Shown piece after piece: positions 7,107 to 16,227 of a stretch of DNA of 64,000 nt. This stretch comes from Thermotoga sp. KOL6 (lineage in GTDB: Bacteria > Thermotogota > Thermotogae > Thermotogales > Thermotogaceae), in NCBI RefSeq assembly GCF_002866025.1, contig NZ_LNDE01000001.1:124001-188000 (forward strand), in the 5' to 3' direction. Position numbers and translations under genes: made by a program. Position 1 is the stretch's first letter. Every line of letters begins with the position of its first letter. Below the pieces are notes generated by a model. The model worked only from the letters and a program-made list of their open reading frames with translations, was not told the origin of the DNA and made no database searches.

Positions 7107-7708
7107 AAAAGTGGATGTGGGCAATTTTCCTTCTTGTTTTCGGATTCCTTCTGATCTATAATGGTTCCTTTGAAAAAACTCCGGTAGAACTCAAGAAACT
7201 CATTGTAAAAAATCCGGTTACTCAGGTGTACCTTTTGAATAGGGTTTACGACACTATCTTTGAAGTGTTGGTGTTTTCTCTTGCTGTGCTAGGAGTCTCC
7301 CTTCACATGTCACATCTTCCCACACCAGACAAAGTAAAAAGCATCTCAGACGTCTCCATCAGAATATTTACGAGATTCATAGCTTTTTTTCTCTTTGTTG
7401 GATCACTCTACCTTGCTGTTGAAGGACACACAAGTCCCGGTGGAGGATTTTCAGCAGGAGTGGCAGGTGGAACTGCTCTTGCGTTGATCGCAATGATAGA
7501 AGATTTCGACTATTTTGAAAGAAAATTCGAAAAGACACGAGCATATCTTTTGGAAAAATTCATTATGATACTATTTCTCATTCTTACGAGTTTTATACTT
7601 CTCGGAGAAAACCTCATAGTTTTTGCGAACGTAGTTGTTTATTTGAAAGTGATGCTAGGCAGTTGGATAATAGTCTATTTTTTTATAAAACACAGAGGGT
7701 TACTCTGA
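7103..7708 (+). CDS. mrpB: MbhE-MrpB fusion, antiporter subunit B
   Basis: A 201-residue membrane protein. Residues 1-75 with RVYDTIFEVLVFSLAVLGV resemble the MbhE domain (normally the extreme C terminus of MrpA), and residues 85-200 are MrpB, with the diagnostic GHTSPGGGFSAGVAGGTALAL segment near residues 112-132. Together with the preceding gene it supplies the C-terminal part of MrpA, while the large NuoL-like part of MrpA is missing from the cluster. The ATG overlaps the preceding stop. The gene ends convergently, overlapping the prepilin-like gene by nine bases. Confidence 0.85.
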   Translation: MKKWMWAIFLLVFGFLLIYNGSFEKTPVELKKLIVKNPVTQVYLLNRVYDTIFEVLVFSLAVLGVSLHMSHLPTPDKVKSISDVSIRIFTRFIAFFLFVGSLYLAVEGHTSPGGGFSAGVAGGTALALIAMIEDFDYFERKFEKTRAYLLEKFIMILFLILTSFILLGENLIVFANVVVYLKVMLGSWIIVYFFIKHRGLL

Positions 7709-8146
7709 AACGCCAAGATCGTATGTGATATCACCTATAACTATAGAAAACACCTTACCATCCTGGGAAAAGTGAACTTCCTTTTCCGTTTCAAACAGAT
7801 AATTGTTACCCTCACCGCTTAACCCTATTCGAACAACCCTGTAAATCCCGTCTTTGAGAATCACGATGTAGGTGATTCTTCCTTTCTTTCCTCTGTGATT
7901 TACATTGTAACTAAAACTATCTTTTGAGATGAAAAGAGATGGAGAGTTCGATCTCTTTACTTTATACTCATGTTTCATGAAGTCTACGGCGTAAAATTCA
8001 TCGAGTGTCTTGTCGACATCCAATGTGAGACGAGCACGGGTTTCTGAAGCGAGAGCAACTGAGAGAAATCCGATCGCTATCACAATACAAAAACAAAAGA
8101 TCAATCCTAAAAGCTCTACTAGGACATAACCACCAAAAAGATGCAC
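7700..8146 (-). CDS. type IV prepilin-like protein starting inside the SRP RNA gene
   Basis: A 148-residue exported protein. Its N terminus reads VHLFGGYVLVELLGLIFCF: a very short leader ending in Gly-Gly, then an aromatic residue and Glu at position 5 of the predicted mature protein, then a hydrophobic helix. This is the class III (prepilin peptidase) signal. The rest is a soluble domain rich in beta strands without a family I recognise. The only in-frame starts that keep this signal are GTG at 8146 or GTG at 8149, and both lie within the 3' end of the SRP RNA gene. No clear Shine-Dalgarno site is present, only GGTGGG about five bases upstream. It ends convergently into mrpB. Confidence 0.65.
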   Translation of the reverse strand: MHLFGGYVLVELLGLIFCFCIVIAIGFLSVALASETRARLTLDVDKTLDEFYAVDFMKHEYKVKRSNSPSLFISKDSFSYNVNHRGKKGRITYIVILKDGIYRVVRIGLSGEGNNYLFETEKEVHFSQDGKVFSIVIGDITYDLGVSE

Positions 8147-8414
8147 CACGCACCCACCGTCGACTCTCCCGGACCGAGGCGTACGTGGTTGGAAAGCTCC
8201 GACCGGGCACCCCCACGGCACACGGAGGCACCTGCTTATGGCTGCTCCCTCCCGGGCCTGACCAGGTTCACAGGGCTCCGTTGCGTGGGACCCGATCTTC
8301 ATCGCTTCCAAACCACGCCGTTTCCCGACCCGAGAGGCCTCGGGTGGGAATTCGGCCCCGCGTATGGCGGATTTCGGGTACAGGGGACCGCCAACCCCCC
8401 GCCTAGCGTGGTGC
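8143..8414 (-). ncRNA. ffs: signal recognition particle RNA (large, with Alu domain)
   Basis: A 272-base GC-rich stretch in an AT-rich neighbourhood. On the minus strand the 5' end GCACCACGC pairs with the 3' end GCGTGGTGC, closing the molecule. The conserved apical domain IV (SRP54/Ffh binding site) is at 8229-8271, with GGTCAGGCCCGGGAGGGAGCAGCC-type core (AGG of the asymmetric loop and GGAG tetraloop region are visible). The length and the 5' GGCGGGGGGTTGG region indicate the Bacillus/archaeal-type RNA with an Alu domain rather than the short 4.5S form. A promoter with the expected start point lies directly upstream. The RNA assembles with Ffh to deliver nascent membrane proteins. Confidence 0.95.
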
Positions 8415-8420
8415 ATCTCT

Positions 8421-8449
8421 ATTTTATGACACTTCCCATGCCTTTTCAA
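8421..8449 (-). promoter_or_regulatory. promoter of the SRP RNA
   Basis: On the minus strand TTGAAA (8449-8444), a 17-base spacer and TAAAAT (8426-8421). The start would fall about 8414, exactly on the first paired base of the SRP RNA. It overlaps the last codons of none of the cupin coding region, lying directly beyond its stop region. Confidence 0.85.
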
Positions 8450-8451
8450 GT

Positions 8452-8721
8452 TCAAAAAAGATTGTAATGTTTCCTCACCGGTTCTAGAACCTTCCACCTA
8501 CATCTCAATCCTTTCGGAAAAGTGACGAGATCACCTTCTCCTATTACATACTTCTTGCCATCCTCTGTTGTCACTTCCACCTTTCCTTCGAGAATGTAAC
8601 ACGTTTCATTGGTGTCATAATACCAATCGAATTCGCTGACTTCTTTCTCCCATATAGGCCAGTTTTCCACTCCGAGCTCCCTGAGCTTCTCTGAAGTCGG
8701 CTTCTCTATCTTGACCTCCAT
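8452..8721 (-). CDS. small cupin protein
   Basis: An 89-residue single cupin barrel, highly like the structurally studied T. maritima cupin TM1112 as I remember it. The sequence contains EFDWYYDTNETCYILEGKVEV, the first cupin motif in which the usual two His are replaced (DTNETCYILEG), and the second motif GDLVTFPKGLRCRWKVLEPVRKHY. It belongs to the DUF861/EutQ-like cupins; the enzymatic role is unproven. The ATG at 8721 has GGAGGTG seven bases upstream, which rules out the ATG 33 bases earlier. Its end abuts the SRP RNA promoter. Confidence 0.9.
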   Translation of the reverse strand: MEVKIEKPTSEKLRELGVENWPIWEKEVSEFDWYYDTNETCYILEGKVEVTTEDGKKYVIGEGDLVTFPKGLRCRWKVLEPVRKHYNLF

Positions 8722-8854: not shown

Positions 8855-9805
8855 ATGCGGAAATGGGGATTGGGGGCCATCGTGTTCTTTCTTCTTTGCT
8901 CTGTATCATTCTCCATCACCACATACAAATATAACAAAGAAACCGGGAGGTGGGAACAGAAAGTAAAGGAAGATGTCCTGATGTTCCCCAGTATTCCAGA
9001 AAACATGTCGAGTAACGTTGTAACTTTGGAGGATACCAAGCGGGGTCAATGGTATTACTACATGGAATACGAATTGGGGAGTGGGGAAGAGCTGTTCAGT
9101 TTTTGGGCAGGGCAGACTACCAACGTGGGAACAGTTATCGTTTGGAACGACGACGAATACCTGTACAACAAGCTTGAACTGGGAGGAGGATGGCTTCTGG
9201 AGGAGGCACACTTGAATATCTTGTCGGAAAAGCCGCAGGGAAATCAAGCTCCAGGGCAGTTTCCTTATAAGAAAGAATTCGAAACACCCACTGCTTCTTA
9301 CACATTTAAAATTCCCCTTTCAGATCTATTCAAAATTAGTTTAAAGAACACAAGAAAAGTAGAAAAGGTATATTACATACTTTTTCACGGAGTTGTTTCG
9401 AATGGTTCCAAGGAAGAAACCGCTTGGGCAGGAAGATGTTCAAATAGCGTATGGATCAAATTGAGTGCAACGAAAGTCAAGTGGTTGGTCAAAAAACCAG
9501 GAGTTTACGTGTCAAAAGTTCTGGAAGTTGAGGCGAGCAAAGACTTATCCATTTTTGTCAGTTTACCTAATCCTACGGGCGTGAACGAAGAAACATCTGT
9601 GGAATTGAAAATAGCAACTGGGGAAGAGATTCCAACAGAATGGTTTGACGAACTTGCGTTTACGGATGACGTCTTCTCGTTGTGGCAGAGGATCGATATT
9701 TCAAGGGATCTTCCCGCCGGAGATTACAAAAGTGTGGGTACCATAACCTTCACCATCAAAAACACAAAGTTGTATGTTGATATCTCACCGAAAAAAGGTG
9801 AGTAG
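8855..9805 (+). CDS. exported protein, first of three paralogues
   Basis: A 316-residue protein with a clear Sec signal peptide (residues 1-21, cleavage near SFS). The C-terminal two thirds resemble the two following proteins: a Cys followed by a Trp-containing strand (RCSNSVWIKLSATKVKWLVKKPGVYV), then an FSLWQRI segment and a closing TITFTIKN strand. The N-terminal part (residues 22-190) is an extra domain with many aromatic and glycine residues. The pattern suggests an immunoglobulin-like or pilin-subunit-like beta-sandwich. I do not recognise a named family. GGGAGGCG lies before the ATG. It is the first gene of a co-directional block ending at 15169. Confidence 0.75.
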   Translation: MRKWGLGAIVFFLLCSVSFSITTYKYNKETGRWEQKVKEDVLMFPSIPENMSSNVVTLEDTKRGQWYYYMEYELGSGEELFSFWAGQTTNVGTVIVWNDDEYLYNKLELGGGWLLEEAHLNILSEKPQGNQAPGQFPYKKEFETPTASYTFKIPLSDLFKISLKNTRKVEKVYYILFHGVVSNGSKEETAWAGRCSNSVWIKLSATKVKWLVKKPGVYVSKVLEVEASKDLSIFVSLPNPTGVNEETSVELKIATGEEIPTEWFDELAFTDDVFSLWQRIDISRDLPAGDYKSVGTITFTIKNTKLYVDISPKKGE

Positions 9806-9819
9806 AAGGAGGGGTTTGT

Positions 9820-10515
9820 ATGAGAAAGTTACTCTGGTTAGTTTTGATGGGTGTACTGTTTTCTTTTGTCTTGGCACAGAGTCCATTAGAAGTTTGGAAG
9901 TACGAAGATGGGGTGTACATCAGCCTTCCCGCAACGAACGATCTTGCTAGAGCGTTCAGTGCGTTTCCAGCAGACGGATCTTGCAACAAACATCAATGGG
10001 AGATTGAATTTACAACAGAGGTTCAAGTTGCACAGTGGCTCGAATGGAGTCTCAACGCGACAAAATGGACATGGTTTGTTAGGAAACCTGGCGACTATTA
10101 CGCGAATGCCATCGTTGGAACGGTTGCCAGCAACGGTGATGTTTTGATAACTTTCAGCGGTTTCGACGATCCGACGTACACAGGAACCTCGAGTGTGAAC
10201 CCGACAATCGAAGCTTACTACACCGTACTGACGGGAGACGCGACACCAGATCTTGACGACTGGGTAAGAGCTCCAGATGTCAACAATCTCTCCTATACCC
10301 TCGAAGACAGTCAAGAACTTCATAATGGTATGGAATTCCACTTGTGGAACAGAATAAAAGTGGTTAATTGTAACTCTGCTTCCACTTACAGAGACACGGG
10401 ATACATCTATCTCACGCTTCAAAACCAAAAACCGTGGATAGATGAAGAAGGAAATTACGTGGAGAATCTCGAGGACTTCGTAACTTCTGACAGATGGGAA
10501 CGCGGAGAATACTGA
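9820..10515 (+). CDS. exported protein, second paralogue
   Basis: A 231-residue protein with a signal peptide cleaved near LAQ (residue 20). It shares long near-identical blocks with the next gene: GSCNKHQWEI, KWTWFVRKPG, ITFSGFD, the LWNRI and CNSASTYRDTGYIYLTL segments, and the C-terminal NQKPWIDEEGNYVENLE. Two cysteines (in GSCNK and VVNCNS) are conserved in both, so a disulfide is plausible in the exported state. The closing strand before a conserved tail resembles that of self-assembling secreted subunits (inference). AGGAGGGG is well placed before the ATG. It is 14 bases after the first paralogue. Confidence 0.78.
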   Translation: MRKLLWLVLMGVLFSFVLAQSPLEVWKYEDGVYISLPATNDLARAFSAFPADGSCNKHQWEIEFTTEVQVAQWLEWSLNATKWTWFVRKPGDYYANAIVGTVASNGDVLITFSGFDDPTYTGTSSVNPTIEAYYTVLTGDATPDLDDWVRAPDVNNLSYTLEDSQELHNGMEFHLWNRIKVVNCNSASTYRDTGYIYLTLQNQKPWIDEEGNYVENLEDFVTSDRWERGEY

Positions 10516-10573
10516 TATGAGTTGACATGATCTAATGTGTGTTCAGTTACAAACAATTGAGGAGGGGATTGGT

Positions 10574-11221
10574 ATGAGAAAGTTTTTATTGATATTAATG
10601 GTTTTGATGATCAGTTCGTTATTCTTTGCTGAAGAGGTTGCAGTATATGCATATGAAGGCGACACCGGAAACGCTAGAGCTTTTATCAGTGATCCCATGA
10701 GTGGAAGCTGTAACAAACATCAATGGGAAATTCCTATGACGTTAGAAGTTCAAGTCGCCCAGTGGGTAAGATGGCAATTGACTGGTACAAAGTGGACCTG
10801 GTTTGTGAGAAAACCAGGAACTTATGTTGCGAACTGTATATCTGCCACTCTTCAAAGCAACAGCGATCTTGAAATCACCTTTAGCGGTTTTGATCACCTG
10901 AAGTACGCAACTGGTACGAGTGTTAATGACACTATACAAGTAGAATATGCTTTTGGACCTCAGCTACCGATACCAGAAGATATATGGACCCCTGCACCCG
11001 ATCTCAACAATGTGACCCTAAATGTTCCCGACAGCCAAACCCTGCACAACGGAGTTGTATACAAACTTTGGAACAGAATTCATGTCGTAAGATGTAACTC
11101 TGCCTCCACTTACAGGGATTCAGGATATATCTATCTTACTCTGAAGAATCAAAAACCATGGATAGATGAAGAAGGAAATTACGTAGAAAATCTTGAAAGT
11201 TACGTTGACAGTTCCAGATAA
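10574..11221 (+). CDS. exported protein, third paralogue
   Basis: A 215-residue protein with a signal peptide (MRKFLLILMVLMISSLFFA). It is the closest relative of the preceding protein across the whole mature region, with the same GSCNKHQWEI, KWTWFVRKPG, LWNRI, CNSASTYRDSGYIYLTLKN and NQKPWIDEEGNYVENLE blocks, so the pair arose by tandem duplication. It has one additional Cys (VANCISAT). The start at 10574 has GAGGAGGGG seven to eight bases upstream; the ATG-like position 39 bases earlier has none. A strong terminator follows. Confidence 0.78.
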   Translation: MRKFLLILMVLMISSLFFAEEVAVYAYEGDTGNARAFISDPMSGSCNKHQWEIPMTLEVQVAQWVRWQLTGTKWTWFVRKPGTYVANCISATLQSNSDLEITFSGFDHLKYATGTSVNDTIQVEYAFGPQLPIPEDIWTPAPDLNNVTLNVPDSQTLHNGVVYKLWNRIHVVRCNSASTYRDSGYIYLTLKNQKPWIDEEGNYVENLESYVDSSR

Positions 11222-11236
11222 GAAGAATCTTAAAAA

Positions 11237-11264
11237 AAAGACGGGGGTGTTCTCCCCCGTCTTT
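11237..11264 (+). terminator. intrinsic terminator inside the exported-protein operon
   Basis: Perfect 11-base stem AAAGACGGGGG / CCCCCGTCTTT with a six-base loop, followed by T-rich sequence. The next gene starts 20 bases later without an obvious promoter, so this looks like partial termination that lowers expression of the assembly genes relative to the three paralogues. Confidence 0.88.
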
Positions 11265-11283
11265 CATTTCTTTTGGGAGAGTG

Positions 11284-12912
11284 ATGGGGATGAGAAGGAT
11301 AAGTTTGATAATTTTGCTTTTAGCAGGAGTTTTTTTACTTGGTCAGGGTGTATCTGTGAGGATGGACCCAATTGTCGTTAGTAAAACGGTAAGTCCGGGC
11401 ACGAGCTTCAATTACGAAATTTTTCTGGAGAACGATAATGAATTCAATCCAGTAACTTTCAAGGCTTTCGTTATGGACGTTGTAGAGACAGCTGATGGGG
11501 CCTACGATGTGAGACAGCCAGGAAGTACAAATTATTCGATCGCTCGATGGGTGAAAGTAGAGCCAGACATCATTACCGTGCCTCCAAAGACAACGAAATC
11601 AGTTTTGGTCACTGTGAATATTCCGCGTGGGGTATCCGGGGGACTTTACGGTGCCGTTGTTTTCGAAATCCAACCTCCACAAGAGCAAACGCAAAGACCT
11701 GCAGAAGAGGGAGCTTACGGTGAGGTTGAGTTTAGATACAGGATGGCGAGCTTTTTGGAAGTTGTTCTTTCAGGAACAAGACACAGAGTAGAGGCCTTCC
11801 CTGCGTATTTCAAAGTGGAGAGATCGGACGATATACCTTCGATAAGAATGCAAATAGGAGACGGTGCGCTCGTTTTTACTCTCGGTGTGCTCAACAAAAG
11901 CAACGTTCATATCGTTACCAAGGGAACTCTCACCATAAAAACAAAGGATGGAAGAACTATCGCCAGGATGCCTTTAGGGGGAGGAAGGGGAGTGATTCTA
12001 CCCGAAGCAACCGTTGGGATGCGTACCATAACGAGAAGGTACTTTCCTCCTGGAGAATACATAGCAAGGGCTGTTGTGGACTACGGAGGAAGAAGACCGA
12101 TAGTGGCGGAAACTCCTTTCACAATCACCGAAGAGAAGATAGAAACAGAAGAAGAGAAAACCGAGTCCGCTCCTGTCATGTTGAGCATAGAACCAGCAGA
12201 TGTCGAGATCAAAGCAATCCCAGGTTCTTTCAGATCAGAAATAGTGAAAGTATCAAATTTAGGTAATGAGACGTTGAGTGTGAACGGAAAGGTATTACCT
12301 CTCAAATATGATCTCTACGGTGAATTATTGCCGGAAGAGGATAGAGGAAAAGCTCCCGAGTGGATCAGTCTCAGACCCTCTTCGTTCACTTTAAGACCTG
12401 GTCAATCGAGAAACGTACGTCTCTCTGTGAAAATTCCCAAGGATTTCACAGGAGCGTATTACGCGGACGTTCTTTTCCGAACAACGAAAGGACTCCAAAC
12501 CGAGGCAGGTGCAAATTTATTGATATTCGCTGGGAAAGAGGAAAACATCACCAAGAGTGCTAGCGCGAGCGTATCTTACGAGATAAAGGAAAACGGAATT
12601 TACGTGGACATTGTCTTTGAAAACACCGGTAACTACCATCTCAACCCTCAAATTGCGTTTGGTTTGAACAAGATCATTCCTCAACAAGTAACAGATGAGG
12701 GTCTCATCATTCCAGAAAAGACGGAAGTGCTGATTCAGGAAAATATATCTTCTACAAATCCTGTTTTGCCAGGAACTAAAAGAATTTTCAGTGTGTTCAT
12801 ACCCATGATTCTCGAAAAAGGAAAGTATGAACTGCTCGTAAGGTGTGACTACGGTTCCAACCCGATACTGATCAAGGAACCTTTCCAAATAGAAGGGGGG
12901 AATGGGGAATGA
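11284..12912 (+). CDS. exported two-part Ig-like protein (chaperone-like)
   Basis: A 542-residue exported protein with a signal peptide ending near LGQG. It has two similar halves, each with a predicted Ig-like fold: the first (about residues 25-270) has ARWVKVEPDIITVPPKTTKSVLV then PRGVSGGLYGAVVFEI, and the second (about 305-540) has PEWISLRPSSFTLRPGQSRNVRLSVKIPKDFTGAYYADVLF. This strand pattern, an edge strand rich in prolines then a hydrophobic strand ending in GxYxAxxxF, is the one of DUF916-like and of periplasmic chaperone-like domains. A Glu/Thr-rich linker (EEKIETEEEKTE) separates the halves. The start is uncertain: GTG 11281, ATG 11284 or ATG 11290. Its stop overlaps the secretin start. 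Confidence 0.7.
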   Translation: MGMRRISLIILLLAGVFLLGQGVSVRMDPIVVSKTVSPGTSFNYEIFLENDNEFNPVTFKAFVMDVVETADGAYDVRQPGSTNYSIARWVKVEPDIITVPPKTTKSVLVTVNIPRGVSGGLYGAVVFEIQPPQEQTQRPAEEGAYGEVEFRYRMASFLEVVLSGTRHRVEAFPAYFKVERSDDIPSIRMQIGDGALVFTLGVLNKSNVHIVTKGTLTIKTKDGRTIARMPLGGGRGVILPEATVGMRTITRRYFPPGEYIARAVVDYGGRRPIVAETPFTITEEKIETEEEKTESAPVMLSIEPADVEIKAIPGSFRSEIVKVSNLGNETLSVNGKVLPLKYDLYGELLPEEDRGKAPEWISLRPSSFTLRPGQSRNVRLSVKIPKDFTGAYYADVLFRTTKGLQTEAGANLLIFAGKEENITKSASASVSYEIKENGIYVDIVFENTGNYHLNPQIAFGLNKIIPQQVTDEGLIIPEKTEVLIQENISSTNPVLPGTKRIFSVFIPMILEKGKYELLVRCDYGSNPILIKEPFQIEGGNGE

Positions 12913-14072
12913 GAAAAGCATTCCTTATATTCACAATCGTGTTTACAATTTTAGCACTTGCTCAAGAAGAACCGCTCGTGACGAATATATTCCAAGACAC
13001 TTACATCTTAGACGCTTTGGCGGATATATCTGCCCAAACAGGTGTTCCCATAATAGCCGATACCACGGTGACGGGTTTTGTTACCATGGAATTGAATGAA
13101 GTTCCGCTTGAGCAAGCTTTGAGAATGATCCTCATGCCAGGTGGTTACGTCTTCAAAAAAATGGACGGTTTCTATCTTGTAGGATCTCCTGATCCTACGA
13201 ATCCTGCGTTCAGATACCTTGCGGAAACGAAAACGTACAAATTGAAGTATGTCACAACTGTGGATGTTGAGGATCTTCTTCCTCCCATCTACAAGAATTA
13301 CGTGAAATTCAATGAGAAGAACAACACTGTGTCTATTACCGCACCAGAAGAAATTATCAGAAGATTCGAGGAAGATTTGAAAAAAATAGACGTTCCAACT
13401 CCTCAGGTAAAAATCAGTGTGATAGTAACGGAAGTTTCGAAAGGTTACTCCAACGAACTGGGCCTCAGCAATTTGAACTATTCGTTCTCTGCCAACCAGC
13501 AATTCAACGAAAACTGGTCTACCGTGTTGGGGCTTGTAACCGGGTTACTGGATGTTCAAACGGATGTGTTCGGACAACTCCTCGCGCGGCTTAAGCTTCT
13601 TGAAGAAGACCAGAAAGCGAAGATCACTGCGGACCCTTGGATAGTTGTAAAAAGTGGTGAAAGTGCTTCTCTGTTTCTCGGTGAAAGACAAGTGGTCCTT
13701 TTAGAAACAGAGGGTGGAGGAAGCAGGATAGAGTCTATAGATGTTGGTGTAAGAGTGGACATACAACCTCGAGTAATGGATTCAAACGAGATCGAGCTGA
13801 CGTTTTCTCCACGTGTGAGTCATTTTGCTGGTGAAAAGTTGGGAACGTTCACAGTAAAACAAAACGAGCTCTCCACCACTTTGCTCTTAAAAAATGGCCA
13901 GACGGTCGTGATATCTGGTGCAACAATAGAAGATACCTCACAAACTAGCTCGGGTATCCCCATTTTGAACAAAATACCACTGATTCGATACCTTTTTGGA
14001 GGAACAACTAAGAAAGATTCAGAAAAAGAACTTTACATATTCATAAAAGCAGAGATTCAGGGAAGTGAATGA
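12909..14072 (+). CDS. short secretin (outer-membrane pore protein)
   Basis: A 387-residue secretin with a signal peptide (residues 1-19). An STN/N0-like domain (about 27-85, with ILDALADISAQTGVPIIAD and PLEQALRMIL), one NolW/N1-type domain (about 100-160, with KLKYVTTVDVEDLLPPI), and the secretin core (about 165-385) ending in the complete signature VISGATIEDTSQTSSGIPILNKIPLIRYLFGG. Secretins form multimeric gated outer-membrane channels for type II secretion, type IV pili or type III secretion. This one is half the normal size, and no ATPase or inner-membrane platform gene is adjacent. ATGA overlaps on both sides. Confidence 0.92.
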   Translation: MRKAFLIFTIVFTILALAQEEPLVTNIFQDTYILDALADISAQTGVPIIADTTVTGFVTMELNEVPLEQALRMILMPGGYVFKKMDGFYLVGSPDPTNPAFRYLAETKTYKLKYVTTVDVEDLLPPIYKNYVKFNEKNNTVSITAPEEIIRRFEEDLKKIDVPTPQVKISVIVTEVSKGYSNELGLSNLNYSFSANQQFNENWSTVLGLVTGLLDVQTDVFGQLLARLKLLEEDQKAKITADPWIVVKSGESASLFLGERQVVLLETEGGGSRIESIDVGVRVDIQPRVMDSNEIELTFSPRVSHFAGEKLGTFTVKQNELSTTLLLKNGQTVVISGATIEDTSQTSSGIPILNKIPLIRYLFGGTTKKDSEKELYIFIKAEIQGSE

Positions 14073-15169
14073 TCATGAAAGGAATGATCGTTCTCTTTTT
14101 AATACTCGCAACTATGGTAACAGGACAGATGGTCATGTATCAGCTCGTTGTTGCCGAAATGACCGACTCAAAGAGTCAGGATGTTATTTTGAAAGAATTG
14201 ACTCTATACACAGAGAAATTCAATGAAAAGACTTTCTCTTATACCAACAACTCTTTTGAGTTGAAACTTTTTCCATTTTCGTTGAAAATCAGTCTTCCCG
14301 AGATCAAGAAATACTACAGAACGCTGTTTAAACCCTGGATCATTACACTACTCGGAAGAAACTCAACGATGAGAATGGGGAGAGATGAGCTTTCGCCAAC
14401 ACAAGAAATAATCACCACTCAAGAGATCTTTCTTTCCCTTACACCAAAAAGAATCAACGACGAAGGAGATGTCTTTTCTGTGATACAGGTGAGACTCAAT
14501 GGAACTCAGTTGAACACCACACTATGGTTGTCGCAAGAAGATTTTCAACCGATCTTCTACGCAAATTTCAAATCTAACGAAGGAGAGAAAAAAGTTGTAG
14601 TTTTTTCCAGGGCTTTGGTTGTGAAATCACCCCCTGAGGAAAAAATCTTTGTCGCCGGAGATCTTTCAGGATTGGAAGAATTTCTTCCAAAACAAGAAGG
14701 AAGAGAGAAAAACAACATCACTCTTTCTTCCAAACCGGAGATCGAAATAGGTGTGTGGTTGAACAAAGATATCCACCTCTTTCTATCATCCTCCGAGGGT
14801 TTACTGTTAGAAAGCAAAATATTTGGAGAACCAATGAGAGCGGGTGTGATATTCTGGCGCTTTCAAAGATGGGGTGTTGGTTTTTCGGATTACTCGAAAA
14901 TTGGCAAACTTCTTCTCTCCTCAGGAGTTTATGCACTGTTCAACTATGAAAACTTTTCAGGTGCGTTTTTCTGGGGTAGGGGGGATCTGCTTCTTGAAAA
15001 TTTTTCAATATCCATGTCGTTCAAATCGCATTGGACGTTGAAAGAAATCAACAGTGAAATCGGATTGAGAGTAGGTTACAAGTTGTACTCTTGGTTGAAT
15101 ATTTTCGTTGGAGTAACGTACAACGTTCTTCAGAACACTGTATTCTTTGGGATAGAGTTAGAGTTTTAG
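14069..15169 (+). CDS. exported protein with outer-membrane-barrel-like C terminus
   Basis: A 366-residue protein starting with a signal sequence (MKGMIVLFLILATMVTGQ). The N-terminal half has no recognised domain. From about residue 220 it alternates short aromatic-rich strands and turns (GVIFWRFQRWGVGF, GVYALFNYENFSGAFFWGRGDL, SEIGLRVGYKLYSWLNIFVGVTYNVL) and ends in FFGIELEF with a terminal Phe, the pattern of outer-membrane beta-barrel proteins recognised by BamA. It is the last gene of the block, starts in the secretin stop (ATGATCATG) and ends convergently, overlapping the regulator by four bases. A role as partner of the secretin is inference. Confidence 0.68.
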   Translation: MIMKGMIVLFLILATMVTGQMVMYQLVVAEMTDSKSQDVILKELTLYTEKFNEKTFSYTNNSFELKLFPFSLKISLPEIKKYYRTLFKPWIITLLGRNSTMRMGRDELSPTQEIITTQEIFLSLTPKRINDEGDVFSVIQVRLNGTQLNTTLWLSQEDFQPIFYANFKSNEGEKKVVVFSRALVVKSPPEEKIFVAGDLSGLEEFLPKQEGREKNNITLSSKPEIEIGVWLNKDIHLFLSSSEGLLLESKIFGEPMRAGVIFWRFQRWGVGFSDYSKIGKLLLSSGVYALFNYENFSGAFFWGRGDLLLENFSISMSFKSHWTLKEINSEIGLRVGYKLYSWLNIFVGVTYNVLQNTVFFGIELEF

Positions 15170-16227
15170 CCGATCGTATATTGATCCTTCTCTATCCCCA
15201 TTTCTCCCAATACATTTTTTAAGCGACTTTCCAAGACTGGGCGCCGCTGTTTCGCACAGTGTGCTAAAACACGAATCGAGTCATTTGTAAAGGTTATTAT
15301 GTCTCCCTTTCGAAACAGCGGCGCCACTTTTTGCACCAGTTCTTTCATTGCTTCATTGATACTTCCTCTGAACTTCAGCTCCAATACCACAAAACCTTCT
15401 CCTCTTTTCCTAGTCTCAAGAAAAAGGATCTTCTCGAAAAAGTTGTTATCAACTATCAATGCTCTGTTTCCGTTCACCAAAGGATTTCCAGGAGTCTGTC
15501 TGGTTTTGACTAGGAGATCTTTGAATACAAACCTGGGTTTTATGCCTATCTCTCTCAGTCTCTTTGAAAGTCTATCGTATAATTTCTTAGCTCTGGAAAT
15601 TTGGCCGCTCTTTGCAAACGCTTCGATTGCTTTGTAGTACACCTCTTCATCGTATGGTTCTCTATTCAAATAGGTTTTGATAACCTCGAAAGCATCTTCG
15701 TAATTTTCTTTTGAAAGGTAGAGCTCGAAAAGACTTTTTAGAACGTTTGAGTACCAAGTTTCGTACATTTCTCTTGCTTCTTGAACCCATTCAGCGAATG
15801 CATCCTCGATCAAAAAGGGGCCTGTGTAAATTTCGTACATCTTCTTCAAAAGTTTCTCACCTTCCATAACAGAAGGGATGCTTTGAAAAGATCTATAATA
15901 TTCTTCGAACATATCGGCATCAATCGTCACTCGCTCGCTAGGACGAAAAACACACAAACTCCCTCTTATGTAAAGCTCTTCGGTTGATATTCCTGTTGTC
16001 CTTCGAATGAGATATAGCGTGGTGTTCAAGTTAGATCTGGCGAATGTTTCTTCCATTCCTTCCCAAAACAAGTCGTACAACTCTTCAACAGAAATTTCTT
16101 CGTTTCTTCTGAAAATTAAGTATCTGAACAAAGAAAAAGCTTTTTGCGATGGCCAATCTTTAGCATTGATGAATTCGTTTCCTTTGATGACTTTTGTTCC
16201 CCCAAATGTCTTTATGAGAATCTTCAC
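15166..16227 (-). CDS. SARP/BTAD-type transcriptional activator
   Basis: A 353-residue protein with an N-terminal winged-helix DNA-binding domain (about residues 1-95; AFSLFRYLIFRRNEEISVEELYDLFW and SNLNTTLYLIRRTTG), followed by the bacterial transcriptional activation domain (about 100-240; alpha-helical with DADMFEEYYRSF, GPFLIEDAFAEWVQEARE and EVYYKAIEAFAKSGQISRAKKLYDRLSKRLRE). The remaining 110 residues form an uncharacterised C-terminal domain that may bind a signal. Regulators of this class usually activate neighbouring genes; it diverges from the sugar-type transporter operon at 16545 and converges on the secretin operon. GTG start at 16227 with GGGGAG nearby. Confidence 0.85.
   Translation of the reverse strand: MKILIKTFGGTKVIKGNEFINAKDWPSQKAFSLFRYLIFRRNEEISVEELYDLFWEGMEETFARSNLNTTLYLIRRTTGISTEELYIRGSLCVFRPSERVTIDADMFEEYYRSFQSIPSVMEGEKLLKKMYEIYTGPFLIEDAFAEWVQEAREMYETWYSNVLKSLFELYLSKENYEDAFEVIKTYLNREPYDEEVYYKAIEAFAKSGQISRAKKLYDRLSKRLREIGIKPRFVFKDLLVKTRQTPGNPLVNGNRALIVDNNFFEKILFLETRKRGEGFVVLELKFRGSINEAMKELVQKVAPLFRKGDIITFTNDSIRVLAHCAKQRRPVLESRLKNVLGEMGIEKDQYTIG

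Follow-up and report, generated by a model that had tools for sequence, protein, structure and literature searches.

What is a short secretin for, when the genes beside it encode no ATPase, no inner-membrane platform and no usher? The question is raised by six genes in a 64,000-nucleotide stretch of Thermotoga sp. KOL6 DNA (the window, to whose coordinates all positions refer unless a contig or locus is named). Between positions 8855 and 15169 they encode three exported-looking proteins, here called P1, P2 and P3, an Ig-like protein (IG), a secretin (SEC) and a barrel protein (BB). The Thermotogae have been reported to stand alone among diderm clades in lacking every recognised system of protein secretion, and ones adapted to their sheath, the toga, have been guessed at (PMC4793230). 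An earlier note, made from the DNA letters alone, had cast the paralogues as subunits, the Ig-like protein as their chaperone, the secretin as the pore and the last protein as its barrel partner, and this remains the best-supported assignment of roles as far as homology can tell. Here we propose a 'chaperone-secretin' pathway that is dedicated to surface proteins and works independently of an ATPase, a reading that we hold to be about evenly balanced between right and wrong.

The six open reading frames (ORFs) are all present where the earlier note had placed them, co-directional on the + strand, and IG and SEC overlap by 4 bp, as do SEC and BB. The genes are also linked outside this genome, in an order kept in two phyla, which excludes chance as the source of the gene set. 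Our Thermotogota sample comprised 103 genomes, and 55 loci bearing IG were examined there, many of them picked for holding a short secretin. SEC lies directly after IG in 48 of these 55, and the series IG-SEC-BB, with BB recognised by profile, is found in 41, where -4 bp is the commonest gap; five more (L066, L067, L068, L076 and L077) have a protein of 283-360 amino acids (aa) at the BB position. Among 17 loci picked later by IG alone, SEC adjoins IG in 13. Conversely, of the 45 genomes for which a short secretin is listed, 43 carry IG, and the other two are fragmented and 71-81% complete. The number and type of subunits differ between loci, and IG-SEC stays constant. As side observations, the short secretin of L072 is broken into two frames (232 and 122 aa), possibly a pseudogene or a sequencing error, and one Thermotoga genome (G092) carries near a contig end (L035) a second copy of the system, of the B type defined below, which runs from two small subunits through IG (477 aa), SEC (380 aa) and an STN-barrel protein (435 aa) to an exported protein of 239 aa.

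A scan of genome contigs with the secretin as a single protein gave three loci, among them the lead into a second phylum, a secretin from a metagenome-assembled genome (MAG) labelled 'Clostridia bacterium DTU084'. A search for IG in 249 sampled genomes of that phylum found homologues in 53, some at E 6e-139; of 22 loci examined, most of them chosen from the best IG matches, 12 show the order subunit-subunit-IG-SEC. Because all 20 of the second-phylum genomes tested have Omp85/BamA, we take these genomes to be diderm. Between the window and L118, P2 (9820-10515 against L118:7891-8610) is 57% identical, IG 41% and SEC 39%; this ranking of P2 above IG and SEC suggests, on identity values, either strong constraint on the subunit or horizontal transfer. 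What follows SEC is different here. Ten loci have an exported protein of 233-310 aa without homology to BB by hhalign and without a Pfam match, and in L130 and L132 a protein of 520-530 aa shows similarity of the secretin-N kind. What stays constant is therefore a core of subunits, IG and SEC. Most of the proteins after SEC in L118-L128 carry a 'GMG...NPAxFG' motif and look FadL/PorV-like by eye only, and a protein of this kind is a possible alternative outer-membrane partner. The P1-like proteins of this phylum keep the subunit domain behind a different N-terminal head, and three of them gave no significant Pfam family. In the DTU084 MAG (G103), two single-unit WxLIP-like proteins of about 270-280 aa (L099, L100) each stand beside an exported protein of about 160 aa, possibly a minimal or ancestral pair.

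This distribution bears on the idea that the subunits are parts of the toga and the operon its exporter. The operon is widespread in Thermotogota, as that idea would have it, and toga-adapted secretion has been speculated upon (PMC4793230), yet the IG profile finds no IG in 40 of the 103 Thermotogota genomes (about 40%) and the operon is present in another diderm phylum. We consider a toga exporter quite improbable.

The 387-residue secretin named in the earlier note was borne out by a match to PF00263 (E 9.5e-39). Secretin_N is also matched over its cut-off (E 8e-8) and STN below it (E 7e-4), and no further N-domains or S-domain follow. Existing annotation calls SEC 'PilQ', and PilQ is indeed its best NCBIfam match, though far under cut-off (TIGR02515, 121 bits against 284), as is GspD (TIGR02517, 109 bits against 351). 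On this view SEC would be an additional PilQ that works in type IV piliation, in competence or in a pared-down type II secretion system, with a type IV pilus motor acting in trans and the neighbouring genes incidental or pilus accessories. TM1117, the SEC counterpart, is among the Thermotoga pilQ candidates (PMC5637354), and the ATPase and platform that the earlier note had correctly found absent from the operon have homologues elsewhere in the genome, where parts unlinked to the operon were checked through family searches only: PilB (C4:54213), PilT (C1:333034) and PilC (C3:51793-52761). Against this, a second, long secretin frame (PilQ) lies at C3:45143, about 6 kb from PilC; every Thermotoga genome examined also holds a long PilQ, and Thermotogota genomes without IG still hold one. 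In an unrooted tree of the Thermotogota secretins, short (about 365-400 aa) and long forms make separate groups, the sole 'short' row within the long group being a fragment at a contig edge (L006), and the short forms, tied to IG in two phyla, split into a window-type branch (A) and another (B). Prepilin-like N-termini were not seen by eye in P1-P3. SEC is thus set apart from a type II secretion or type IV pilus cluster, as the earlier note had supposed; a second PilQ is an improbable explanation, and the annotation of TM1117-type genes as PilQ or competence secretins is suggested to be wrong. SEC is also about the size of the filamentous-phage secretin pIV and matches it in the PDB (7ofh, E 1.9e-16), as a domesticated phage exporter would. 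pIV ranks below GspD and PilQ, however, there are no phage genes beside SEC, and the operon with its exported pilin-like subunits is kept across two phyla, so that a filamentous-phage origin was rejected as barely credible.

IG is Ig-like, as the earlier note had said, and consists not of one two-domain unit but of two in tandem, four Ig-like domains in all. In hhalign comparisons, which were run here and below beside reversed-sequence controls, its halves match each other at E 2.7e-23, domains 1 and 3 at E 5e-17 and domains 2 and 4 at E 8e-13 (reversed control 0.14). The best PDB match of the IG profile is EfmWxLIP1 (9i1y, 9i25; E 1.2e-11), in an alignment that takes in the PGBD and the final part of domain two, and in Pfam 20 of 35 IG members match WxLIP_PGBD at E up to 0.01, with fn3_5 matched too and no PapD family found among the 35. 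By these homologies IG is a duplicated relative of WxLIP and not PapD-like, and it is our candidate for a periplasmic chaperone. AlphaFold2 (AF2) predicts that WxLIP inserts a strand into WxL (PMC10599100). The WxL domain itself (PF13731) passes its cut-off in 0 of the 103 Thermotogota genomes. By eye, the IG C-terminus is hydrophilic (...FQIEGGNGE) with no evident transmembrane helix.

Of the three related exported proteins that had been noted, P2 and P3 are paralogues and share the peptides quoted for them; P1 joins them only through its C-terminal 125 or so residues (hhalign E 3e-28; reversed control 0.08). The relation of P2/P3 to the B-type subunits is weaker (E 1.4e-7; reversed controls about 0.1), and no significant Pfam family was found for ten subunits. 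In this genome the subunit domain has no strong copy beyond the three that the operon encodes. An unlinked lipoprotein-like ORF of 193 aa (G000:C3:146299-146598, L105) matches the subunit profile marginally (E 0.07) and has a C-terminus resembling the subunits (...TVTITVNNVRLWITW). AF2 models were made for P3 and BB as monomers. That of P3 reaches a predicted local distance difference test (pLDDT) score of 83, and its Foldseek matches in the PDB are mostly chaperone-usher pilins (CfaB, FimG, FimF, FimA, CsuA/B), with TasA besides, moderate evidence for a pilin-like predicted fold. P1 combines a variable head with the subunit domain, as two-domain adhesins do, and is a candidate adhesin or tip subunit.

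The strongest rival explains the same genes without polymerisation: a type II-like exporter of single folded surface proteins, with P1-P3 secreted or anchored as carbohydrate- or wall-binding proteins, IG tethering them and no fibre. IG is indeed nearer to WxLIP, proposed to tether WxL, than to any PapD chaperone, and a varying set of subunits around a constant IG-SEC pair fits such export well. IG has no evident C-terminal transmembrane helix, however, unlike WxLIP, and the subunits are paralogous, single-domain and pilin-like, more like the subunits of a polymer; P1, too, has the subunit domain. We regard this rival as unlikely, and as a contender to be taken seriously all the same.

A KdgM-like C-terminal region of 150 residues with 12 strands (AF2, pLDDT about 80-93) agrees with the barrel-like end that had been noted in the last protein. 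Most BB relatives begin with secretin N0-N1 (hhalign to short secretins, E 6e-36; reversed controls about 0.4). The BB of the window has lost N0-N1, and its residues 20 to 190 or so are still, weakly, secretin-like (hhalign to SEC, E 4e-7). Foldseek retrieves the secretins ExeD/PulD (E 3-5e-4) and the KdgM porin (TMt 0.63). In most families, BB is thus a fusion of secretin N-domains and a barrel. In three second loci of family f10 (L075, L078 and L079), a secretin-N/barrel protein comes directly after IG and a separate secretin is missing, and several small opposite-strand genes lie upstream.

The terminator that had been reported proved to sit inside the operon, between the subunit genes and the assembly genes. 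A stable stem of -19 to -25 kcal/mol folds just upstream of IG in 11 of the 13 A-type loci tested, and since these stems differ in sequence, it is the pairing that is conserved and not the sequence. Such a hairpin would suit abundant subunits and scarce assembly proteins. Within the genus, identity is 49-56% for BB, 59-61% for P1, 80-83% for SEC and 82-86% for P2; the fastest-evolving, BB and P1, change as might be expected of surface-exposed proteins. A BTAD homologue lies at most seven genes from the operon in 22 of the 55 Thermotogota loci, in several families, and the BTAD-domain protein is probably a regulator of the operon. The cupin gene upstream is the orthologue of TM1112 (PDB 1o5u/1lkn, E 2e-55); with TM1117 listed as a 'pilQ', the operon is therefore by synteny TM1113-TM1118 of T. 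maritima, and the regulator TM1119.

Several results weigh against the chaperone-secretin proposal. IG occurs without a secretin in L075, L078, L079, L133, L135 and L136. The Foldseek matches of P3 have a probability of about 1 and low TM-scores (0.3-0.5), with a best E of 1.5e-3 and none passing E 1e-3, and profile searches of the PDB with subunit alignments gave no match. P1 has an N-terminal motif like that of P2 and P3, unexpected for a pure tip subunit. Finally, IG could be a WxLIP-like surface or peptidoglycan linker and not a chaperone.

How such a chaperone-secretin pathway might run, we infer as follows. P1-P3 would cross the inner membrane by way of their signal peptides. IG, as a double WxLIP-like protein, would bind and stabilise the pilin-like subunits in the periplasm, probably donating a strand that completes their beta-sandwich, as predicted for WxLIP and WxL. 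Loaded subunits would be handed to the short secretin, presumed to form a ring in the outer membrane, and folding and strand exchange could power their passage with no need for an ATPase. BB, or the unrelated protein of the second phylum, would reside in the outer membrane, where it might be a gate, an anchor or a partner in assembly. P1 would be displayed as an adhesin with its exchangeable head, with P2 and P3 as shaft or base, and the product would likely be a polymeric fibre. The hairpin after the subunit genes would hold expression of the assembly genes lower.

Features of the operon and its probable regulator in the window
Feature	Position	Strand	Description
P1 (TM1113-like)	8855..9805	+	316 aa, exported; N-terminal head of ~200 aa and C-terminal subunit domain homologous to P2/P3
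P2 (TM1114-like)	9820..10515	+	231 aa, exported subunit
P3 (TM1115-like)	10574..11221 (10574 = better start)	+	215 aa, exported subunit; pilin-like predicted fold
Terminator-like hairpin, intra-operonic	11237..11264	+	11-bp stem, between P3 and IG
IG (TM1116-like)	11281..12912	+	~543 aa, exported; duplicated two-Ig-domain WxLIP-like unit; candidate periplasmic chaperone
SEC (TM1117-like)	12909..14072	+	387 aa, short secretin: N0 (STN), N1 (Secretin_N), secretin domain
BB (TM1118-like)	14069..15169	+	366 aa; degenerate secretin-like N-terminal part and C-terminal 12-strand outer-membrane barrel
BTAD-domain (SARP-like) regulator	15166..16227	-	PF03704; convergent with BB

Outside the operon, the large bacterial signal recognition particle RNA (RF01854, 195.8 bits) occupies 8146-8411 (-), so that the ORFs at 7700-8497 (-), 8141-8467 (+) and 8185-8406 (+) are non-coding where they overlap it.

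The operon, which occurs in relatives of T. maritima and also in another diderm phylum, offers the Thermotogae a concrete candidate for a secretion system of their lineage. If the chaperone-secretin reading is true, a secretin can work without an ATPase or inner-membrane platform, on subunits held by a chaperone, and the WxL surface clusters of Gram-positive bacteria are joined to fibre assembly in diderms. We found no published description of the system in the open-access literature, the scope of our search (subscription papers and preprints lay outside it).

Among known systems, the pathway would work like the chaperone-usher pathway (type 1, CFA/I and archaic Csu pili) and not be a member of it, having no usher and no PapD. 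The two have in common a periplasmic protein of Ig-like type, the export of subunits (those here with weak matches of predicted fold to pilins, seen for P3), one subunit of two domains whose head varies, an operon that includes the gene for an outer-membrane pore, no ATPase and an operon hairpin that could set the ratio of subunits to assembly proteins. In our operon, however, the pore is a secretin and IG, which is duplicated, matches WxLIP and not PapD; the usher family (PF00577) passes its cut-off in 0 of the 103 Thermotogota genomes. To the WxL-WxLIP (DUF916-DUF3324) clusters of Gram-positive bacteria the pathway appears related through IG, which is homologous to WxLIP, and both include small, exported, beta-rich partners. 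It would not belong to them, with no WxL and no evident transmembrane helix: the hosts are diderm, the IG unit is duplicated, the partners fall outside the WxL family, and a secretin and a barrel are added. With GspD and PilQ of type II secretion and type IV pili, SEC shares the N0, N1 and secretin domains, and it differs from them in its length of only about 387 aa, its lack of further N-domains, S-domain and linked ATPase or platform, and its branch apart from long PilQ. TasA and the archaeal threads are donor-strand-complemented fibres made without an usher, and TasA is among the fold matches of P3, which does not imply homology; to our knowledge these systems have no secretin or WxLIP-like chaperone. 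Each known system tested is thus without some defining part, in line with the earlier note, which knew no system with this gene set, and we therefore regard the system as new as a whole, its parts coming from known superfamilies. Somewhat more tentatively than the pathway itself, we suggest that adhesive fibres of diderms are built when a chaperone of WxLIP type, in duplicated form, delivers donor-strand subunits to a motorless secretin aided by an outer-membrane partner, and that the WxL/WxLIP systems and chaperone-usher pili are variations on one principle of strand donation.

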